Below, piece after piece: positions 1,680 through 12,692 of a stretch of DNA of 64,000 nt. Positions within the stretch are counted from its first letter, which is position 1. Each line of letters starts with the position of its first letter. The notes below the pieces were generated by a model, which worked only from the letters and a program-made list of their open reading frames with translations, was not told the origin of the DNA and did not search any database. Where the stretch lies: positions 1 through 64,000 of the forward strand of contig JAPDIZ010000005.1 in NCBI GenBank assembly GCA_029259355.1, written 5' to 3'. Source of the DNA: Candidatus Bathyarchaeota archaeon (GTDB taxonomy: Archaea > Thermoproteota > Bathyarchaeia > JAPDIZ01). Made by a program: the position numbers and the translations under genes.

Positions 1680-1695
1680 AATTATATATTTAAAG
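1680..1695 (+). promoter_or_regulatory. TATA box of the first radical SAM gene
   Basis: The AT-rich block aattatatatttaaag is centred about 26 bases before the ATG at 1714. No Shine-Dalgarno sequence sits in the gap, so a leaderless transcript beginning at or near the A of ATG is likely. Confidence 0.55.
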
Positions 1696-1713: not shown

Positions 1714-2664
1714 ATGACCTTATACTTTGGGGTAGAGGTTCCCAAGAAGTGGTTGAACTCTAGGTATGTGGCGCTTTTCAACAAAGCTTCTGAAGAAATC
1801 GTATGTCCTAGTTTCTGGGAGCTAAAGTGGGCTGTGGGATGCCCGTTTGGATGTACATACTGCTATCTTCAGGGAACGCTTTTTGGAAAGAAGCAGCCGA
1901 AGTTGAAGAACCTAAGGGGTTTATCCGAGGAGCTAGATGAGTTCCTTGGTTGGTGCGATCAACACGATTTGCACGTCCTGTTAAATGCGGGAGAGCTCTG
2001 TGATAGCCTAGCTATACCGCATTGGACAGCAGATTTTCTAGAAACAGTTTCTGAGGTATTGGAGAAGCATAACGGCCATAGGGTTCTCCTAGTTTCTAAG
2101 GGGGGAGTGAAGCACATCGAGCCTTTACTAGACATAGCAGATGAGCTGAGAACGTACTTTGTCGCGAGTTTCTCCATAAATTCATCGAAAGTGGCTAGAG
2201 AATTTGAGCTGGGAACACCATCACCTAGCGATCGAATGGAAGCAGCTAGAATCTTATTTGAAGAGGGTTTTGAGGTAAGGATAAGGATAGATCCAATAAT
2301 ACCAGTTAGAGGATGGGAAGAAAGCTACTTACACTTAGTTGAAAGCCTCCTAGATAGGCTAAGCCCGACAAGAATAACGCTGGGAACGTTGAGAGGGCTT
2401 AGAAAGACCATCAAGTTTTCCAAGAAACGAGAGTGGTACCAATTTCTCAGAAATGGTGAAAAAACTGGTTGGGGATTGAAGATGCGATTTGGAGAGAGAA
2501 TGCGGATTTATAGAAAAATCATAGAAAAGCTTAGAGAGCTTGGGTTTGGTGGAGAAATCGCTTTGTGCAAAGAGACGCTGGAGATGTGGATGGCACTCAA
2601 AGACCTACTAAATTCTCCTCAACCCTCACCAGATTGGGCTATTAGATGCAACTGTACGTTCTAG
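1714..2664 (+). CDS. Radical SAM protein, SplB/Gp37-Gp68-like family
   Basis: 316 residues. The iron-sulfur cluster motif CPFGCTYC places Cys at 43, 47 and 50 (CX3CX2C), set in FWELKWAVGCPFGCTYCYL. Radical SAM enzymes use this cluster to cleave S-adenosylmethionine and start radical chemistry. The overall pattern (late RIRIDPIIPV strand, GTLRGL motif) resembles the spore photoproduct lyase-like group, which shares its cluster motif with the phage Gp37/Gp68 proteins. It is a clear paralog of the convergent gene at 2661-3758, with matching blocks over most of the length, and the two stop codons overlap by 4 bases. Unlike that paralog it has no TcmP gene directly beside it. The substrate is unknown. 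Confidence 0.75.
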   Translation: MTLYFGVEVPKKWLNSRYVALFNKASEEIVCPSFWELKWAVGCPFGCTYCYLQGTLFGKKQPKLKNLRGLSEELDEFLGWCDQHDLHVLLNAGELCDSLAIPHWTADFLETVSEVLEKHNGHRVLLVSKGGVKHIEPLLDIADELRTYFVASFSINSSKVAREFELGTPSPSDRMEAARILFEEGFEVRIRIDPIIPVRGWEESYLHLVESLLDRLSPTRITLGTLRGLRKTIKFSKKREWYQFLRNGEKTGWGLKMRFGERMRIYRKIIEKLRELGFGGEIALCKETLEMWMALKDLLNSPQPSPDWAIRCNCTF

Positions 2665-3758
2665 GCGTATAGCTCTAGTACATGATCGCCATAACATTGG
2701 CAACGCCCCGGAAAATAGTTCCATCCCAAAGCATCCCACATCTCTCTAGTCTCCTTACAGATCGTTACTCGAGAAACATCGTAACCCATTTCCCTCAGCT
2801 TGTCGCGCATAAACAGATATATCGTCTTTCTAGTTTCGAAGTTTAGCTTCAAGCCCCAGCCAGTTTTTTCACCATCCTTAAAGAAGCGCGTCCAAGAAAC
2901 AGACTCTCCCATCTTCCTAACGTAGTAAAGAGTTTTCTTTAGCCCTCGAGGAGTTCCCAGTATTATTCTCTTGGGATTGACGTTTGAAAGCAGCTTATAC
3001 AGCAGGTGCTCATAGTGAATTTCCCAGTCCTCTACGGGAAAAATAGGGTCTATCCTAATCCAAACAGGATACCCCACTTCAAAGACAAGTTTAGCAGCGG
3101 CTATTCTTTCCTCCGGCGGAGGAGCAGCCTCCCAAAGCTTAGCAACTCTATAGGCGTTGATGCTCCAAGCACATACTACGTTTCTATAGCTTTTTCTCAG
3201 GAGAAACTCCACATTTCTGGAGCCACACTTGCTCAAAAGCAAAAGCTTATGCTTGCTTTGCTCCTCAAACTTATCCGCTATTTTCTCCATAATATCAGGA
3301 TTCATCAAAGAATCAGCCAACTCCCCGCTATTAAACAGCGCAGGCCTTCCATCATTAAACTCGAGGTCATTAAAAACCTGATCAAGCGCCTTCAAAACAT
3401 GCTCAATTCTAACGTATCTAGGCCTTGTATCCCCCCTATACGTACCCTTGAGGTAACAGTAGGCACAGTTGAATGGACAGCCAAAAGCCCAACGAAGCTC
3501 CCAAAAACGACCACAAACTATGTCTGGAGGAGCTTTACTAAAAGGCCTTATTATCGATTTACAAAAAGAAGCTCCTTTGTCAATTTTTAGAGGAGAAATA
3601 TCTTCAGGGTGGATAATCTTGGCAATCTCATTCGAAGATATGAATTGCTCTATCTTCTGAGTATTTCGAGCGATCTTTTCTCGTTTTTTCTTTTTAATGG
3701 TTTTCCAAGCCTTTAAGGCAGCCTTTTTGTATTTTTCTTTTTTGTTCATATCAATCAC
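2661..3758 (-). CDS. Radical SAM protein paired with TcmP
   Basis: 365 residues from the GTG at 3758; an ATG three codons in (3749) is an equally good start. Residues 1-40 are very Lys-rich (KKEKYKK, TIKKKKREK), unlike the paralog at 1714. The radical SAM motif CPFNCAYC has Cys at about 94, 98 and 101 within FWELRWAFGCPFNCAYCYL. Blocks GRPALFNSGELADSL and VWIRIDPIFPV line up with the neighbour. It follows tcmP with no gap (tcmP stop at 3759-3761), so the two are almost certainly co-transcribed. TcmP was named for co-occurrence with proteins carrying such a three-Cys motif, so this is the expected partner. Substrate and role are unknown; the phage-type Gp37/Gp68 link suggests conflict or nucleic-acid modification. 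Confidence 0.75.
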   Translation of the reverse strand: MIDMNKKEKYKKAALKAWKTIKKKKREKIARNTQKIEQFISSNEIAKIIHPEDISPLKIDKGASFCKSIIRPFSKAPPDIVCGRFWELRWAFGCPFNCAYCYLKGTYRGDTRPRYVRIEHVLKALDQVFNDLEFNDGRPALFNSGELADSLMNPDIMEKIADKFEEQSKHKLLLLSKCGSRNVEFLLRKSYRNVVCAWSINAYRVAKLWEAAPPPEERIAAAKLVFEVGYPVWIRIDPIFPVEDWEIHYEHLLYKLLSNVNPKRIILGTPRGLKKTLYYVRKMGESVSWTRFFKDGEKTGWGLKLNFETRKTIYLFMRDKLREMGYDVSRVTICKETREMWDALGWNYFPGRCQCYGDHVLELYA

Positions 3759-4886
3759 TCATTTGGTGAACTCATTTATTTTCCTCTGCATCTCTCTTTT
3801 TCCTAAAATTGTTTTTTGTTCCCCCTTTACAATCCCCCAGATAATTTTCAGATCTCTTGCAGAATACCTTCCAATCTTATTACGTGCCCAATTTATGTAG
3901 TTATCTAGCCAGCGGCTATTAGAAGCTGTTTGTCTAGTTGCAAATAAGAGGTAATATAATACCTTACCTTGCATAGTCTCCACAGGAAATTCTAAAACTT
4001 TGTTTCTTCCAGCTTTATGGAACGCCTCTTTGTAAGCAAGCCTTGTCGCCTCTTCGATTGGAGTACCGCCTTCCCTAGCTTGCATGAAGAAATTATAGCC
4101 ATCGCCTCCTAAAAACTGCCTAACTTTTTCTTGTTTAGCTGACTCTATTCCCCTAGCTAAGGTAGGCGAGTGAAGATTCACTATTACATCGCCGCCATAG
4201 TTTAATAACTTATTCAAGTTATCCCAGTATAGTTGAAGGTCAAGATCGGCAAAGGGGTCTATAAAAAGTAGGTAATGTGCTCCACTACTCTCTAACTCTG
4301 CTTTATCGATGACTTCGTTAATCTTTTGATTTACATCCCCATATATTACGTAATACTTACTTGTTCCATCATCCAATTCATTAAGCACTTTGCGCAGAAT
4401 CTCGCACTTTTTCCGGTCATTATCTATAAAAATGAGGACATCAAAAGGCCTAACCATCCTAAAACGATTAATTCGATTAGACATAATTTTGGGCCAACAG
4501 AAGGCAATTAGTGGGGAGCCCACCACCACGTCATCCAAACTTCCACCAACAAAAGATAGACCGCAACCAGAAAAAGCATCGATATAGGCCACCCGTTTAA
4601 CCCACGAGGCTGATCTGATTATTTGGAGATACATAGGGATGTAACCAGCCAAAAGAAGAAGCTTCTTTAAAGACCATACTCTTTCTCTGACATATGTAGG
4701 ATCCTCCTTCAATAGAGATTTTAAAGGCCTTTCGATACTCGGCTTTACCATCTCAGCAAGTTTCTTTAGTTCTTTGATATTTTGAAGAAGCCAATCAAAA
4801 CTCTGTGCAGGCATTTCAATATCTTTACCAAGTTCTCTTAGATAAGTAATTTTTCCTCCGAAAGAAGCAACGAGTTTGTTGAACAA
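3759..4886 (-). CDS. tcmP: Three-Cys-motif partner protein TcmP
   Basis: 375 residues from a TTG start; a later in-frame ATG (near residue 25) is possible. The Rossmann-like core is visible: YIDAFSGCG at about 101-109, VLIFIDNDRKKCEIL near 150-165, then HYLLFIDPFADLD near 205 and GGDVIVNLHSP near 230. That arrangement is typical of the TcmP family, which resembles methyltransferases or nucleotide-binding enzymes but has no proven reaction. The C-terminal 80 residues look helical and could bind nucleic acid. It is the first gene of a two-gene operon with the three-Cys radical SAM protein. Base composition is more AT-rich than the housekeeping genes to the right, in keeping with accessory origin. 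Confidence 0.7.
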   Translation of the reverse strand: MFNKLVASFGGKITYLRELGKDIEMPAQSFDWLLQNIKELKKLAEMVKPSIERPLKSLLKEDPTYVRERVWSLKKLLLLAGYIPMYLQIIRSASWVKRVAYIDAFSGCGLSFVGGSLDDVVVGSPLIAFCWPKIMSNRINRFRMVRPFDVLIFIDNDRKKCEILRKVLNELDDGTSKYYVIYGDVNQKINEVIDKAELESSGAHYLLFIDPFADLDLQLYWDNLNKLLNYGGDVIVNLHSPTLARGIESAKQEKVRQFLGGDGYNFFMQAREGGTPIEEATRLAYKEAFHKAGRNKVLEFPVETMQGKVLYYLLFATRQTASNSRWLDNYINWARNKIGRYSARDLKIIWGIVKGEQKTILGKREMQRKINEFTK

Positions 4887-5040: not shown

Positions 5041-5826
5041 TTAGGAAAATAATCTTCCAAGAAGCGGCATTTCTTTCCAATAAATCCCATCTTTCCAAGA
5101 TATCTCGGTTAATTGAGGAGATATGGTAATGGATAACTTCCTACTTACATTAAAAGTTGCAGCATACACGGTTATCAGAAACTCGTAACGTCCACTATTA
5201 AGAGGAGATTTATCCCATGGAAATCTAAATTCCAAGGTTATCCTCTCCTGTGGTCTGACAAAGACTCTCTCCGCTCCCTTAAAATCCCCAGCTTTGTACA
5301 GATACCTTCTTTTCCCTCCCTCTAGGGCAAAAATAGGCACTACCATTTCCTTACCTCCATTAGGTGTGAGTTGTCTGAAACGAAATTCGTGAAGCGTCAC
5401 TCCAGTATAACCAACATTTGCGACATCAAAAGCGATCCTCAGCTTATATGGTCTCTCACAGCACTCAACATATCGTATTTTTCTCAGCCATCGGCTACGT
5501 TTAAAGAGAGGTTCAACAATAGGCCTAGGTTCGTTAGCAACTTTTTTAATAAACTTTGGTTCAGCAATCACATTTCCCTTGACATTTTCTGGTTCAATAT
5601 TAAAGCTTAGTATTTTCAACTCTGGCATTCTAGAGAAGTAATAATAGACTATAAGAAGGGTTAGAAGCACCTGTATACCAGCAATTAAGATGTCTTGAGA
5701 AAAACCCAGAAAAATTAAAAATGGAATAATTAGAACAATAATAATTACTAAAAAAAGAGGAATAATTAGAACAACAATTAAAAGAAAACGCAGAAAATCT
5801 ATCACACTTCCTCTTATGATCCTCAT
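5041..5826 (-). CDS. Membrane protein with extracytoplasmic beta-rich domain
   Basis: 261 residues from ATG at 5826. The N-terminus has two long hydrophobic segments (about residues 10-40 and 45-64) rich in Ile, Leu and Val, then a soluble domain of about 190 residues. That part has alternating strands (LRIAFDVANVGYTGVTLHEF, ERITLEFRFPW, YEFLITVYAATF), a pattern of an immunoglobulin-like or CARDB-like beta sandwich that would face outside the cell. I do not recognise a named family. It lies on the same strand as tcmP, which starts 154 bases downstream of this gene's stop, and outside the rtcB-repeat island. Composition is AT-rich. Confidence 0.55.
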   Translation of the reverse strand: MRIIRGSVIDFLRFLLIVVLIIPLFLVIIIVLIIPFLIFLGFSQDILIAGIQVLLTLLIVYYYFSRMPELKILSFNIEPENVKGNVIAEPKFIKKVANEPRPIVEPLFKRSRWLRKIRYVECCERPYKLRIAFDVANVGYTGVTLHEFRFRQLTPNGGKEMVVPIFALEGGKRRYLYKAGDFKGAERVFVRPQERITLEFRFPWDKSPLNSGRYEFLITVYAATFNVSRKLSITISPQLTEISWKDGIYWKEMPLLGRLFS

Positions 5827-6103: not shown

Positions 6104-8875
6104 TTAACTTCGTCTGCTTAGGATGATTTTTGCGGTATTTTGTCCAAGCCTTGTGAGCCTTAAGTAGGTATCTCCGTTGCTTCGGTAAGTCTTGATTAAT
6201 CCGAGCGTCTGTAGTTTTTGGAGCAGCTGCTTATTGCCTACTTCTTTGACGCGTATTGAAGCGGTGCTAAATAGTTTGGTTACTACTTGAGATTCTCTAG
6301 GGCTTAGTCGGCTGACTATCTGCCACGCCTTATCTCTAGGATCGACCTCGTCTGCAATTCTCGCGAGGAGTTGAGCAGATTGCTTTCTACGCTTTTTCCT
6401 CGAAGACATCGCCTCTTCGACGAGCGGGACCTTTATTTCGAAGGGCTGTGGAGCATCTGGCGTTCTGGCTATAGCGTGTCCAACGTTGAGAGTGGATATG
6501 TAGTTAGCTAGTCTAGCACCTCTCCCCTTTGCAGGGTTTAGGCCAAGCGCCGATACCGCCATAGCTTTGTCGAGGTTTTCGAAAAGCCTGAACACCACTA
6601 GGGTGTTGCAGTTAGCCAACGCATCTTGGGTAACTGCAGAGGGTCTTTGATCTACCAGTATCAAGCCCTCGCCGTACTTGCGCAGCTCCTTGAGCATAGC
6701 TGTTGCTGGGCTGGTTACGACCTCTTCTTGGGTATCTGGAGCTCTTCTGATCCTTGGCGCAAAGCCGTGTGCTTCCTCAACTACGGTTACGTGAACATCT
6801 CGGCCGCCAACGACTCCCAGCCGACGAGCTTCGATTATGAGCACCATGGCTGTGGAGGCGAATAGCGACGCGCTCTCCAAATCTAGCTGGCTTAGGTCAA
6901 TTACCATGGGTTTGCTGAGCAGCTCTGCCACATCAAGCGTTGTGTGCTCTCTATCGAATATTCTTCCACAAACCCCTAGGCTCATCCTTTCTAAGCGAGA
7001 TAGAAGCGAATCTAGAGCTAGCCTAGTCCTTAAGCCCCCTCGCTCCCCAACCTTCTTAGCCACGTAGATCCAGTCCGAGATGGTGGGGTTTCTGCAGCTT
7101 CTGTATAGCTCGTGTAGGCTCGACCTCGCCAACCTATCGAGGTTAGGGCCCCAGCTCCCAAAAAGCGCGTGTAGAGATCTGGTGACGTAGTCTATGTGGA
7201 GATCTAGCGGGATGCCTCGAGGAGCCTCCAGCACGTTTATCGAGACATCATCCTCAACAGGATCAACTACCTCCACGGAGAGCGACTCAGCCATCGAAGC
7301 ATACTCGCCGTGTGGGTCAAACACCAAAAACGGCATCCCGTGATCCTGTAGAAGCTGCTTAAGCAGATGCTTGACGAAGTTGCTCTTTCCGCTTCCCGTG
7401 GCTCCAAAGACAGCTACGTGTAGGGGAAGAGCTTTGGTGGGTAGGTATGCCCAAACCCCTAGCGAGCGGCCGTAGCGCAAAACCTCTCCCAAAACCAGCG
7501 CATCGCTACGTGGTTGCGTGGGATAGGATAGGTCTAGCTTAGGCGTATGTGGCAAGCCAGGAGCAGGCTTAACCGGCACCTGTATCAGCGGAACCGCTTC
7601 TTCTAGGTTGATTCGCCAGCTTCTGCTGGAGAAGAGAAGCCAGCCTCTCAGCGCCTTAAGCAGCGAGAAGCCCCTAACCCTCGCTCGACTCCTATCGAGG
7701 AAGCTTGTTGACGACAAGAGAGCTTCGAAGGTCTTCACAGCTACGGAGAGGCTTTCTCTATTCGGTGCGCAAACCCCTACATACACCGATGCTCTAAACA
7801 CGTAGTCGTCTGCGGATGCTCCTCCACTCAAGCGGGAAACAGCGCTTCGGCTGGGGTGTAGAGCAAGTGCGTAGCGCGTCTGCGCAGAAAGGCCTAGCTC
7901 AGCCTCGACGACAACGTTATCTGGAATGTGATCGGTGGCTTTGCAGAGCCTGAGCGCTCCGTAGAGCTGTTGGCCATCGATTACTAGGTAGCTTACGCCT
8001 GCTCCACGTCCCCTTTTGTCGAGACAAGCTATTTTCTCGAGAGCTGTTTCGTCGGCATAGGCTATGGACGACTTGGGAAGGGAAGTTGACACAAGCTTCT
8101 CCAACACCTCAAGCCTTTCACAAGCTCTCCTGAGATCTGGTCTCAGCAGAGACCTACACCAAGTTAGGAAATACGCACCTACTTCGCAGTCGCGTAGGGC
8201 TATGTAGCCCAAGGGTATGCGGGCTTCGTAGACACTCCTAAGAAGGTGTTTTACCCCTCTTTGCAGCTCCTCAGCAGAGACGCAGCTTGAAACCACCAAC
8301 GCTCCAGCCACTACATAGCGCAGAAAACCCCTGTAAACCAAGAGAGCTCTGCCCTCGCGGCAAATCACCTTGGGCGAAGCTAGAGAGTCTAGAGCGTTGA
8401 TCAGCGGCTTGGGTAAGATGCTGAGCAAAAGCCCTGAAAACACGGATCTACAAGCTGAGGAAGCCGTCAACGCCGTGCACATTAGCCCAAGAAGAAGAGG
8501 AGCTGCTTGAGGAAGATCTGCTAGGGAGAAAAGCGCGTAGGAAAGCGCTCCCATCGCTGATGATACGGTAGCTAGAGCGAGCAGCTTAGCTACAGAGAAA
8601 AACCTGTTTCTAACGAAGCTCCTCCCCCTGCTATACGGAAGCAGAGCCGTTGGTAGAGCAAACACCCACAGCCAGAGAAGGAGTAGCGAGAAGTAGAGGG
8701 GGATGGCGAACACCCGGGAAAGAGGGTGTGGGCTTAGGGCTAAGAAAGCCCTTACCGGACCGTAAACTGCTGTTGCACCCAAGAGGGTTAGTATGAGCGC
8801 AAAGATCGACGCTGCCAGCGCACCAAACGCCTTCAATAACACGCGAAACCACCAAAGAAATGCTAAGAAACTCAT
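6104..8875 (-). CDS. Membrane-anchored HerA-like (DUF87) ATPase
   Basis: 923 residues from the ATG at 8875. A longer reading frame to 9133 exists, but its first 86 codons look non-coding. About the first 190 residues hold several hydrophobic segments; a middle domain of about 280 residues follows; then a RecA-type ATPase with Walker A GATGSGKSNF near residue 487 and Walker B VTVVEEAHGF near 695. Next come the HerA-like block RKYGEGLILVDQRPS and the arginine-containing VVFRLFEN. The last 80 residues resemble a winged helix. HerA and VirB4-type hexamers pump DNA; a membrane anchor suggests DNA transfer or export, or anti-invader defence. It is divergent from the HTH/nuclease gene at 9228. I cannot choose between conjugation-type and defence roles. 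Confidence 0.7.
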   Translation of the reverse strand: MSFLAFLWWFRVLLKAFGALAASIFALILTLLGATAVYGPVRAFLALSPHPLSRVFAIPLYFSLLLLWLWVFALPTALLPYSRGRSFVRNRFFSVAKLLALATVSSAMGALSYALFSLADLPQAAPLLLGLMCTALTASSACRSVFSGLLLSILPKPLINALDSLASPKVICREGRALLVYRGFLRYVVAGALVVSSCVSAEELQRGVKHLLRSVYEARIPLGYIALRDCEVGAYFLTWCRSLLRPDLRRACERLEVLEKLVSTSLPKSSIAYADETALEKIACLDKRGRGAGVSYLVIDGQQLYGALRLCKATDHIPDNVVVEAELGLSAQTRYALALHPSRSAVSRLSGGASADDYVFRASVYVGVCAPNRESLSVAVKTFEALLSSTSFLDRSRARVRGFSLLKALRGWLLFSSRSWRINLEEAVPLIQVPVKPAPGLPHTPKLDLSYPTQPRSDALVLGEVLRYGRSLGVWAYLPTKALPLHVAVFGATGSGKSNFVKHLLKQLLQDHGMPFLVFDPHGEYASMAESLSVEVVDPVEDDVSINVLEAPRGIPLDLHIDYVTRSLHALFGSWGPNLDRLARSSLHELYRSCRNPTISDWIYVAKKVGERGGLRTRLALDSLLSRLERMSLGVCGRIFDREHTTLDVAELLSKPMVIDLSQLDLESASLFASTAMVLIIEARRLGVVGGRDVHVTVVEEAHGFAPRIRRAPDTQEEVVTSPATAMLKELRKYGEGLILVDQRPSAVTQDALANCNTLVVFRLFENLDKAMAVSALGLNPAKGRGARLANYISTLNVGHAIARTPDAPQPFEIKVPLVEEAMSSRKKRRKQSAQLLARIADEVDPRDKAWQIVSRLSPRESQVVTKLFSTASIRVKEVGNKQLLQKLQTLGLIKTYRSNGDTYLRLTRLGQNTAKIILSRRS

Positions 8876-9227
8876 TATCGAGATCAAGCTCTCTGACGAG
8901 TATTCCCGGGATTTGTTCGAAAAAAGAGGGAAAAAGAGAGGAGGTATGCGGGGAATTCTACCGCGAATACCGTATCCGAGTAGGAAACGGAGAATTTTCC
9001 GGGTAGCGCATAAGCGGGGAGAATTTCCTGAAAAACTATTGAGTTTTTCCCACATATCTTCGAAAAAAGGCGGTAAAACCGAGAAGAAACCTCGATAAAC
9101 GTAAAGAGTTGTTAGTGAAAAATGCCCGCTCAATGAGAAGATGCCGTCAGTGCTTAGACGCAGCGCGCAGCCGGGCGGGGAGGGGAAGAACCCTCGATGA
9201 GGCTAAGTAGGTAGCGAGGAGGTCACC
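8876..9227. other. Divergent intergenic region of the island
   Basis: 352 bases between the start of the HerA-like gene (minus strand) and the start of the HTH/nuclease gene (plus strand). No gene is supported here. It contains three related motifs (listed separately) and, at its right end, a strong Shine-Dalgarno sequence gaggaggt at 9217-9224 for the ATG at 9228. It must carry the promoters of both divergent genes, although I see no textbook TATA box. Confidence 0.5.
8949..9030. promoter_or_regulatory. Three copies of a GGAGAATTTCC-like motif, possible operator
   Basis: cggggaattctaccg (8949-8963), acggagaattttccgg (8987-9002) and cggggagaatttcctg (9015-9030) share the core cGG-G-GAATT-t-CC. 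Each is partly palindromic around AATT. Repeated near-palindromes between divergent genes are typical of repressor sites, and the neighbouring protein at 9228 has two HTH domains, which makes autoregulation a natural guess. The motif is short and chance similarity is possible. Confidence 0.35.
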
Positions 9228-10607
9228 ATGCCCACAAACCCCCTCACGTGGTTGATGAGGAGACCCCAAACCCAGCGCAGAGACCTTCCTCGCTGGTTGG
9301 AAGGGGATGATCCAAAACCACCTGAGGGGGTGGTATACGTGAGAAGTGTGTCTCTGCTCTCGTACTGTAACGAACATCTGCTCGATAGGCACTTGCTCCA
9401 CTACCTAAATGATTTGCGCGAACGCTATGAGCTGGCTAAGCAGCTAACCAACGGCTTTCGAAGAATTTCTCCTTGGATTCTGCGGCAACACCCAAAGATT
9501 CTGCGAGTCCTTCGCTTGGCGCTGAGGCTAACAATCACCGAGCTCTCCGATCTATCCAAAGTCGACTTCACCAACATCGAGAAGCTGGAGAATGGCCGAT
9601 ACTCAACCGCTACACCCAAAACCGCCAACAGGATAGCTGCCGTGCTCAACCAGCTATACCGCGAAAACAACCTCTTCGGACGCGTCACCTACGAAGAAAT
9701 CGAGCAAGCAATCAAAACCGTGTTTAGGCTCGAAACAAGAGGATTTGGCAGGCTCTGCAGCCCCCTAAAGGAAATGAGCATCGAAGAGTTCCTCGACCTG
9801 TACCGATACGTCGTCGAAGAAACCAAGGGATTCACCCTGCACCCACCAATCATGCTTCTCAAGCGACCAAACGCCATAGCCGTATACAGAGTGCTGCTCG
9901 GAATCCCAAGAGACCGCTTCGCAGCACTACTAGGAATCAAGAAGGGATTTTTGGAGAAGCTGGAAAACGGAGCCATCACCATCAGATACTACAAAACCGC
10001 CAAACGCTACGCAGACAAGCTGAAGAAAATAAGCCAAGAATATAGGCTCCACGAAAACGCCAGCGAAGAGATGGTGATCAAGAACCTAAACGCTCTACGT
10101 AGAGGCTGGGCAACCCACGAAGAACTACGCAGACGAGCGAAAGTAGCTAGTGAGAGAAGAAACATCTCTCCGAACTCCATCACACCACAAGAGCAGAAGA
10201 TAATAGCGTTGCTTGAAGCACACGGAATTAAATGCTATGGGCTTACCTCTCCGGAGCCTGAGGGGCTTAGATGTCTCGTCCACGGATCTATCAACATAGG
10301 ACATCGAAAATATTGCGCCGACTTTGTGATCCCTGACGCAAAGAAGCCGAGAATCATCATGGAGGCTCGAACCTTCAGCAACCGCACAAAAGATGAGATA
10401 TTCGTGCTAGAGCTAAACGCCCTATTTCAGCTGATGCGAGAGCAATACCCCGACGCAAAGCTTGTGATGATCCTTGGAGGCAGAGACAAGCCGCTGAAAG
10501 ATCCCCCGCCCTTTGTAAGAAACGCCGACGCCGTATTTGTTGACGCAACGCTAGAAGAGCTGCCGCTGTGGATCAAGCAACAGCTTGGCGAAGCAAAGCA
10601 CCAATAA
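9228..10607 (+). CDS. Double-HTH protein with C-terminal nuclease-like domain
   Basis: 459 residues from ATG at 9228 behind a strong Shine-Dalgarno sequence. Two XRE-like helix-turn-helix units are visible: residues about 85-145 (LTITELSDLSKVDFTNIEKL) and about 208-268 (IPRDRFAALLGIKKGFLEKL), both followed by LENG, the usual end of the recognition region. The C-terminal part (about 315-459) looks like a restriction-endonuclease fold: CADFVIPDAKKPRIIMEART gives an Asp near 365 and a Glu near 379, in the spacing of a D...ExK site, but Arg replaces the usual Lys. So it is either a variant nuclease or an inactive one. It is followed after 33 bases by the 161-residue gene. Function is inferred, not known. 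Confidence 0.6.
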   Translation: MPTNPLTWLMRRPQTQRRDLPRWLEGDDPKPPEGVVYVRSVSLLSYCNEHLLDRHLLHYLNDLRERYELAKQLTNGFRRISPWILRQHPKILRVLRLALRLTITELSDLSKVDFTNIEKLENGRYSTATPKTANRIAAVLNQLYRENNLFGRVTYEEIEQAIKTVFRLETRGFGRLCSPLKEMSIEEFLDLYRYVVEETKGFTLHPPIMLLKRPNAIAVYRVLLGIPRDRFAALLGIKKGFLEKLENGAITIRYYKTAKRYADKLKKISQEYRLHENASEEMVIKNLNALRRGWATHEELRRRAKVASERRNISPNSITPQEQKIIALLEAHGIKCYGLTSPEPEGLRCLVHGSINIGHRKYCADFVIPDAKKPRIIMEARTFSNRTKDEIFVLELNALFQLMREQYPDAKLVMILGGRDKPLKDPPPFVRNADAVFVDATLEELPLWIKQQLGEAKHQ

Positions 10608-10640: not shown

Positions 10641-11126
10641 ATGAGCGGCGAATCTCCTCGGTATACCATGGTACTGGAAGAAAAGGTTGCGAGAATCCTC
10701 GGATACGAGTACGAGCAATATCCCGTTATAGAGCTTTGGCCCGGAAGATCCGAGGTCATAAGCTTTGCAATACCAAGTATAGAAGAGCCTCTGGTGGTGG
10801 TCATATGCAAAGACTTTCGAGACTTCCTCGAGCTTTATGAAAAACAGAAGTTTGCGGGAAATACCATACTCACACCTTTAGAGTACTTAATTAATGCAGC
10901 AGATGCCATAGCAAAGTTTGTGAAGATGACATACCCGCAGACAAAAGCTATGCTAATAGCATCTGGCATAACTGAGAGCTACACACCAAATGAGCTAAAG
11001 AACATCCTATGGGAATGCAGCGAATACCTAGACTACATACTCTTAGAAGATCAGCTAGACAATCTAAACAAAGCCGTACAAAATCTGATCGCACGAAGAA
11101 GAAGTCGACGAAAGCGAGGAAAATAG
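10641..11126 (+). CDS. Partner of the HTH/nuclease protein, family unknown
   Basis: 161 residues from ATG at 10641 with Shine-Dalgarno gaggtgat 7 bases upstream. It is soluble, with an alpha/beta pattern: strands EVISFAIP, PLVVVICKDF, KAMLIASGI, and a very basic end (ARRRSRRKRGK) suited to nucleic-acid contact. I do not recognise the family. It sits 33 bases behind the HTH/nuclease gene and is surely co-transcribed. A damaged copy of its last 58 codons lies at 12516-12692, so the gene has been duplicated or acquired twice. Possible roles are a nuclease partner, an inhibitor, or a second DNA-binding subunit. Confidence 0.5.
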   Translation: MSGESPRYTMVLEEKVARILGYEYEQYPVIELWPGRSEVISFAIPSIEEPLVVVICKDFRDFLELYEKQKFAGNTILTPLEYLINAADAIAKFVKMTYPQTKAMLIASGITESYTPNELKNILWECSEYLDYILLEDQLDNLNKAVQNLIARRRSRRKRGK

Positions 11127-12461: not shown

Positions 12462-12515
12462 GTTTAGAAAGAAAATTTTACTTTCCAAAGTCTCACTAAA
12501 GAATTTTAAGAAACA

Positions 12516-12692
12516 ATGCTGGTCATATCGGGCATAGACGAAAACTGCACACCAAGAGAACTACAAGAACTTCTCTGGACCACCAGTGATTACCTGGACT
12601 ACATACTCTTAGAAAATCAGCTAGACAACTTAAACGAAATCTAAAAAACTTTGATTAATCGAAGGATAAGTAGACGAAAACGGGAAAAATAA
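12516..12692 (+). pseudogene. Broken copy of the C-terminal third of the 161-residue partner gene
   Basis: 177 bases align without gaps to 10950-11126. In frame they give MLVISGIDENCTP..., with about 37 of 58 codons encoding the same residue as the intact gene, including YLDYILLE and QLDNLN. An in-frame TAA stops it after 43 codons (LNEI-stop), yet similarity continues beyond the stop to the same basic tail and stop codon. The first two thirds of the gene are missing. This is a decayed paralog and not a functional small gene, although a 43-residue peptide could still be made. Confidence 0.75.

Follow-up and report, generated by a model that had tools for sequence, protein, structure and literature searches.

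Introduction

The closest described relatives of the locus reported here are PDC-M30 and PDC-M41, two PADLOC candidates that combine a three-Cys-motif partner protein (TcmP) with a DUF5131 protein and that were found by "guilt-by-embedding" (PMC10855318). Among 100 P. aeruginosa strains, 32 were predicted to carry PDC-M30 and 68.8% of these were resistant, a relationship that is a correlation (PMC10855318). In Sinorhizobium meliloti, the putative transcription units that increase together include those of TcmP SMa2243 and the phage-defence gene hna (SMa2245) (PMC12445080). Although TcmP and its three-Cys partners occur widely, only three papers in an open full-text collection of 5.4 million name TcmP, and none gives it a function.

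Here, we describe a TcmP locus of a different composition from Candidatus Bathyarchaeota archaeon (assembly GCA_029259355.1, contig JAPDIZ010000005.1). The stretch analyzed, hereafter the window, covers the initial 64 kb, from base 1, of a contig of 100 kb; the genome is 1.74 Mb in size. One tcmP gene is accompanied by two radical S-adenosylmethionine (SAM) genes related to spore photoproduct lyase (SPL), which we term SPLA and SPLB. We read SPLA, SPLB, and TcmP as probably one set, and we give a probability of about 0.5 to this set being a three-component conflict system of the TcmP/three-Cys radical SAM kind, in a variant with two radical SAM enzymes, that modifies nucleic acids.

Results

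The cassette comprises three open reading frames: SPLA (1,714–2,664, plus strand, 316 residues), SPLB (2,661–3,758, minus strand, 365 residues, starting at GTG or at an inner ATG), and tcmP (3,759–4,886, minus strand, 375 residues, start codon unsure). Pairwise alignment of SPLA and SPLB gave 43% identity over 282 residues (E 7e-75), identifying them as paralogs. The two genes converge, and the palindrome CTAG at 2,661–2,664 is common to both stop codons. On the minus strand, SPLB begins at the base directly after the tcmP stop codon, with SPLA next in order, and the TcmP-SPLB pair is presumably carried on one transcript. The original prediction, made from the sequence of this DNA, had placed two paralogs tail to tail with a 4-base overlap and the second of them against tcmP, and this layout was borne out. 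Upstream of SPLA, the TATA-box-like TTATATATTTAAA (1,682–1,694, plus strand) lies 20–32 bases before the ATG; as read from the sequence, it suggests that SPLA may have its own promoter.

We then examined which genes accompany one another in related loci. Searches across GTDB contigs and IMG/VR yielded 96 loci (given L numbers below). An alignment of TcmPs was too diverse to be used for scanning a collection. The window TcmP itself, searched in viral contigs, phages, and plasmids, gave no match, and its relatives had to be found by way of the aligned radical SAMs and a distantly related TcmP. In the resulting tree, SPLB fell within a fully supported clade, all members of which carry the tail motif AAxKAWxTI. 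SPLA fell in a separate clade, where the nearest tree rows (L097 and L057) each adjoin a TcmP, and a TcmP alone, though the L097 TcmP (8,813–9,920) reads in two frames and may be broken or misassembled.

Each of the nine TcmP loci found with a tail-clade enzyme has one, and only one, additional three-Cys radical SAM, which comes from outside that clade. By comparison, none of the 48 TcmP loci lacking a tail-clade enzyme holds two radical SAMs, and 47 hold one (Fisher 1.1e-10, with loci that are not fully independent). Two of the nine (L166 and L182) are near-identical, leaving eight independent loci, and a further tail-clade locus (L130) is cut by its contig end. A held-out search of the class, the phylum, and viral contigs for further tail-clade members returned only known ones, so that eight independent loci underlie the rule. 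The additional enzyme belongs to SPL-A in the window, to SPL-C in L086, L087, L090, L166–168, and L182, to another SPL type in L055, and to DUF5131 in L088 and L089. Across tail-enzyme loci, mean pairwise identity was 55% for the tail enzyme and 29% for TcmP. In five loci, the two kinds of protein are fused in a single open reading frame, as SPL-TcmP in L103, L114, L115, and L123 and as DUF5131-TcmP in L074. These fusions are strong evidence that TcmP and radical SAM proteins act together.

As a second radical SAM recurs with every tail enzyme, SPLA is most likely the core partner of TcmP and SPLB an accessory third component, an arrangement that requires no loss. We weighed this against two independent TcmP systems lying side by side, in which SPLB and TcmP would be the working pair and SPLA a remnant whose TcmP was lost. 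Such a history would fit with the TcmP neighbors of L057 and L097, with the tandem arrangement of two radical SAM-TcmP pairs in L090, and with the co-directional TcmP and SPLB genes in the window. We nevertheless consider it unlikely, as the combination of two radical SAMs with one TcmP is found in eight of the nine loci of the tail clade, the second radical SAM being of four kinds. Were decay by chance at work, a tail enzyme left with TcmP alone would also be expected, and none was found; SPLA moreover retains all invariant residues and its own TATA-like box. The gene set is real and recurrent. The earlier proposal that one paralog had lost, or never had, a TcmP partner is probably wrong; the two nearest relatives of SPLA each adjoin a TcmP. 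Nor is it supported that the other paralog merely gained a tail; conservation of the tail characterizes an entire clade, which is always found with a second radical SAM and TcmP.

Other arrangements were seen among the compared loci. L090 (6,048–10,046, region G380:C67) is a four-gene run in which SPL-C, TcmP, tail-SPL, and TcmP follow in tandem, so that two TcmPs of different clades accompany two radical SAMs. In L063 (9,521–12,672), two different TcmPs (316 and 450 residues) flank one 263-residue SPL-like radical SAM, the inverse of the window ratio. Two Thorarchaeal isolates (L101, 3,533–6,955; L133, 7,252–10,612) carry in a row an SPL, a cytidylate-kinase-like gene, and a divergent TcmP-like protein of 535–545 residues.

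We next compared the radical SAM proteins with known families. Both match the spore photoproduct lyase profile PF20903 (SPLA 71 bits, SPLB 46.4 bits, gathering 27), and SPLA also exceeds gathering for PF04055 (30.3 bits), with SPLB below it. Neither reaches the TIGR04070 equivalog cut-off of 400 (75 and 52 bits, respectively). The AlphaFold model of SPLB (mean predicted local distance difference test [pLDDT] 91.3) gave spore photoproduct lyase 4fhc as its best fold match (E 3.3e-15), and the features of the radical SAM superfamily are present, namely a CX3CX2C motif and a radical SAM fold. The motif lies at 1,840–1,863 in SPLA (plus strand; C43, C47, and C50, invariant in 61 aligned sequences) and at 3,456–3,479 in SPLB (minus strand; C94, C98, and C101). 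A C-terminal CxC lies at 2,647–2,655 in SPLA (plus strand; C312 and C314, invariant in the alignment) and at 2,694–2,702 in SPLB (minus strand; C353 and C355, invariant in the 61 sequences). In SPLB numbering, seven cysteines are invariant among the 61 aligned relatives (C94, C98, C101, C82, C334, C353, and C355), and SPLA keeps every invariant residue. The C-terminal CxC is present in 74 of 76 proteins of the TcmP-linked SPL clades versus none of 20 other archaeal SPL-like proteins. The four extra cysteines (C82, C334, C353, and C355) suggest a putative second iron-sulphur cluster. The Lys-rich N-terminal tail claimed for the second paralog was confirmed in SPLB (3,564–3,758, minus strand) and is Lys/Arg-rich, with 18 K/R in 65 residues and a long helix predicted by the model. 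Its AAxKAWxTI motif (3,696–3,722, minus strand) is identical at A13, A14, K16, A17, W18, T20, and I21 in 10 of 10 aligned sequences of the clade.

Three other identities were considered for these enzymes. DUF5131, raised by the original prediction, was rejected by profile search, as neither SPLA nor SPLB matches PF07505. The radical SAM mobile pair (TIGR04470 and TIGR04471, cut-offs 410 and 355) was likewise set aside, with SPLB scoring 18 bits to TIGR04470 and SPLA giving no match. Spore photoproduct lyase function was also rejected; the hydrogen-donor Cys140 of the lyase (4fhc) aligns with an invariant Glu (Glu146 of SPLB), and the spore-lyase reaction is therefore not expected. SPLA weakly matches the DUF1848 of PADLOC RTasDUF1848 (E 4.9e-6), and no reverse transcriptase gene was among the annotated genes near the window cassette. 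We also note a family of ~364-residue radical SAM proteins related to these SPLs in Planctomycetota and relatives (L142–L160), near which TcmP was not detected and which probably has a separate role.

The identification of tcmP was upheld, with the protein scoring 105.1 bits against TIGR04474 over residues 71–328, above the curated cut-off of 53. Its model (pLDDT 88.8) matched the folds of SAM methyltransferases, with RlmJ the top PDB match. Fusion proteins had contaminated an initial profile of TcmP, which was rebuilt. By sequence, the TcmP profile reaches RlmJ in the PDB at E 7.7e-4, with the aligned blocks YiDlfAGsG/YLDTHAGAG and GSPlia/GSPLIA and a shared YxDxxAGxG. In the window protein, the methyltransferase motif I-like loop is YIDAFSGCG (4,560–4,586, minus strand), aligned to YLDTHAGAG of RlmJ, and a GSP (4,512–4,520, minus strand) stands in the place of GSPLIA. 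At the motif IV position is the DP of IDPF (4,254–4,259, minus strand), the D of which is invariant in the alignments. DPPY is the motif of amino methyltransferases; the window has DPF and the family consensus is DPxG, and the (N/D)PP(Y/F) catalytic motif is absent. As modeled, TcmP is a protein of RlmJ-type methyltransferase fold with a changed catalytic motif, which may use SAM.

Turning to distribution, the system is sporadic and looks mobile. TcmP was found in 18 of 300 phylum genomes (about 6%) and 8 of 201 class genomes, and 4 of 257 class genomes carried a radical SAM of the tail clade. The three-gene set was also present in three IMG/VR contigs, which are of Bathyarchaeal tailed viruses, and in one class member (L166–168 and L182, respectively). 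In L166, the cassette immediately precedes genes encoding a phage cement protein and an HK97-type capsid protein, and a DNA methyltransferase gene is in the same viral locus. Two viral copies of an outlying SPL-like clade (L169 and L170) lack TcmP and lie near a HerA-like/terminase-like ATPase gene. In temperate Gordonia phages, a DUF5131-TcmP pair is found between the immunity repressor and the integrase, and these genes converge with 4- or 11-base overlaps, recalling the convergence in the window. Across six of these phages, the radical SAM is 92–97% identical and TcmP only 23–51%, apart from two pairs with closely related TcmPs (97% and 88%). Easley and Bosnia share repressors of 88% identity and TcmPs of 23%, while ThankyouJordi and Easley have 97% identical TcmPs and largely different repressors; TcmP is thus swapped independently of the repressor. 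This pattern, in which the enzyme stays constant and its partner is exchanged, would be expected of a specificity subunit under conflict.

These viral copies raise the alternative that the cassette modifies the DNA of a virus or mobile element against host nucleases, with the window copy a remnant of such an element. The Bathyarchaeia tailed-virus contigs, in which the cassette has capsid genes as neighbors and shares its locus with a DNA methyltransferase gene, would agree with this, as would the two TcmP-less viral copies beside their ATPase gene. The Gordonia pair, however, sits with the repressor, in the position of prophage-active genes and not of late DNA replication, and some hosts have the cassette beside restriction-modification genes rather than virion genes. 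We regard protection of element DNA as improbable on balance.

The distribution also bears on a housekeeping-like role in DNA repair or tRNA/rRNA modification, for instance in repair of ultraviolet photoproducts. This would draw on spore photoproduct lyase as the closest solved fold of the radical SAMs and on an rRNA methyltransferase as that of TcmP. We consider it more doubtful than either preceding alternative, as the hydrogen-donor Cys of the lyase is an invariant Glu here, and the genes are sporadic and partly viral, with TcmP exchanged between close phages. Furthermore, archaea form no spores. The original prediction, that the TcmP/three-Cys radical SAM pair is of uncertain function and often lies near mobile DNA, agrees with this occurrence in viral contigs and temperate phages; a conserved place in housekeeping operons was not what we observed.

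Finally, we examined the surroundings of the cassette. Its G+C content is 0.418, against 0.538 (standard deviation 0.013) in same-size windows at 14–64 kb, and this AT-rich composition suggests that it came from another source. Searches over 14 kb around the cassette found no tRNA and no attachment-site-like pair of repeats. The gene at 5,041–5,826 had no family match by profile search and no relative among the other loci compared. Also close to the cassette is a 1,009-residue HerA-like ATPase (6,104–9,133; PF01935; phrog_7035, E 1.6e-23), followed by a helix-turn-helix protein with an unassigned C-terminal half (9,228–10,607). Two direct repeats of 181 bases each, 71% identical, lie at 10,945–11,125 and 12,511–12,691.

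Discussion

We propose that SPLA would be the core radical SAM enzyme working with TcmP, and that SPLB would be an accessory radical SAM that bears a basic tail and is transcribed immediately downstream of TcmP. Each of the two could cut SAM to a 5′-deoxyadenosyl radical and act on nucleic acid, as spore photoproduct lyase does. The SPLB tail may hold the nucleic acid, with SPLB providing a second radical step or serving as a loading factor. TcmP, with its RlmJ-like fold, would be the fast-changing part that picks the target or finishes the modification. The modification could serve virus-cell conflict, either as host defence or on behalf of a virus or provirus that excludes rivals or shields its own DNA. 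What is demonstrated is the architecture: the three genes and their homology, the co-occurrence rule, the fusions, the carriage by viruses, and the swapping of TcmP alleles. We infer a nucleic-acid substrate from homology to a DNA-acting lyase, the RNA methyltransferase fold, and the basic tail, and the location and exchange patterns would point in an antiviral direction. Links to defence were also seen in neighboring genes and in TcmP itself. Type I or IIG restriction-modification genes adjoin L100, L137, and L163, and the window TcmP matches PADLOC PDC-M41A (E 9.8e-17) and PDC-M30A (E 8.2e-12).

Several observations weigh against this proposal. Over 14 kb around the window cassette, neither a proven defence gene nor an integrase or a provirus was seen, with the contig starting at base 1. 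A survey of neighbors counted 195 PADLOC families at TcmP loci versus 25 at control loci (at 1e-8), which is suggestive only, as the control differs taxonomically and related methyltransferase models inflate the count. PDC-M30 and PDC-M41 are themselves candidates by genomic embedding, and the open full-text literature on "three-Cys-motif partner" gives neither a function for TcmP nor an experiment on any member. The overall fold match of TcmP to RlmJ is weak (TM-score 0.37), and with DPxG rather than DPPY at motif IV, it is not certain that TcmP is an active methyltransferase. The case for a nucleic-acid substrate is built on homology and the basic tail. It is also SPLB, not SPLA, that is presumably co-transcribed with TcmP, which could equally make SPLB the partner.

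A more specific form of the proposal is correspondingly more tentative. The cassette may represent an antiviral three-component system, found in archaea and in the viruses that infect them, that uses a pair of radical SAM enzymes together with a hypervariable subunit of methyltransferase fold to place a modification or lesion on nucleic acid; the tail enzyme would be a module that joins any of four kinds of TcmP/radical SAM core. More broadly, our comparisons offer a testable frame with TcmP as an exchanged methyltransferase-fold subunit, several radical SAM families as the steady core, and the tail enzyme as an add-on. The natural sets of TcmP alleles in laboratory Gordonia phages make function directly testable.

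Compared with known systems, the window TcmP is by score a full member of TIGR04474. It is a divergent one, however, with ~20–30% identity to other aligned TcmPs and a family domain that is preceded by an additional N-terminal helix of ~65 residues. RlmJ, the 23S rRNA A2030 N6-methyltransferase (PDB 4blw and 6qe5), is its top fold match and shares the YxDxxAGxG and GSPLIA blocks with it; unlike RlmJ, it has DPxG for DPPY and a radical SAM partner, and overall identity is very low. The radical SAM proteins resemble spore photoproduct lyase (PF20903; TIGR04070; PDB 4fhc) in fold and in their CX3CX2C motif, but differ in the invariant Glu at the place of Cys140, in the invariant C82, C334, C353, and C355, in having a partner protein, and in their non-sporulating and viral hosts. 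The DUF1848 of the reverse-transcriptase defence systems (RTasDUF1848) is an SPL-like radical SAM already tied to a defence system, though of a different family and with a different partner. Closest overall are PDC-M30 and PDC-M41, which have a homologous TcmP, an adjoining three-Cys radical SAM gene, and a sporadic distribution in common with our locus; neighbors of other TcmPs match their B components and DUF5131. The window radical SAMs, in contrast, match neither DUF5131 nor the PDC B model, and there are two of them rather than one, one bearing a basic tail.

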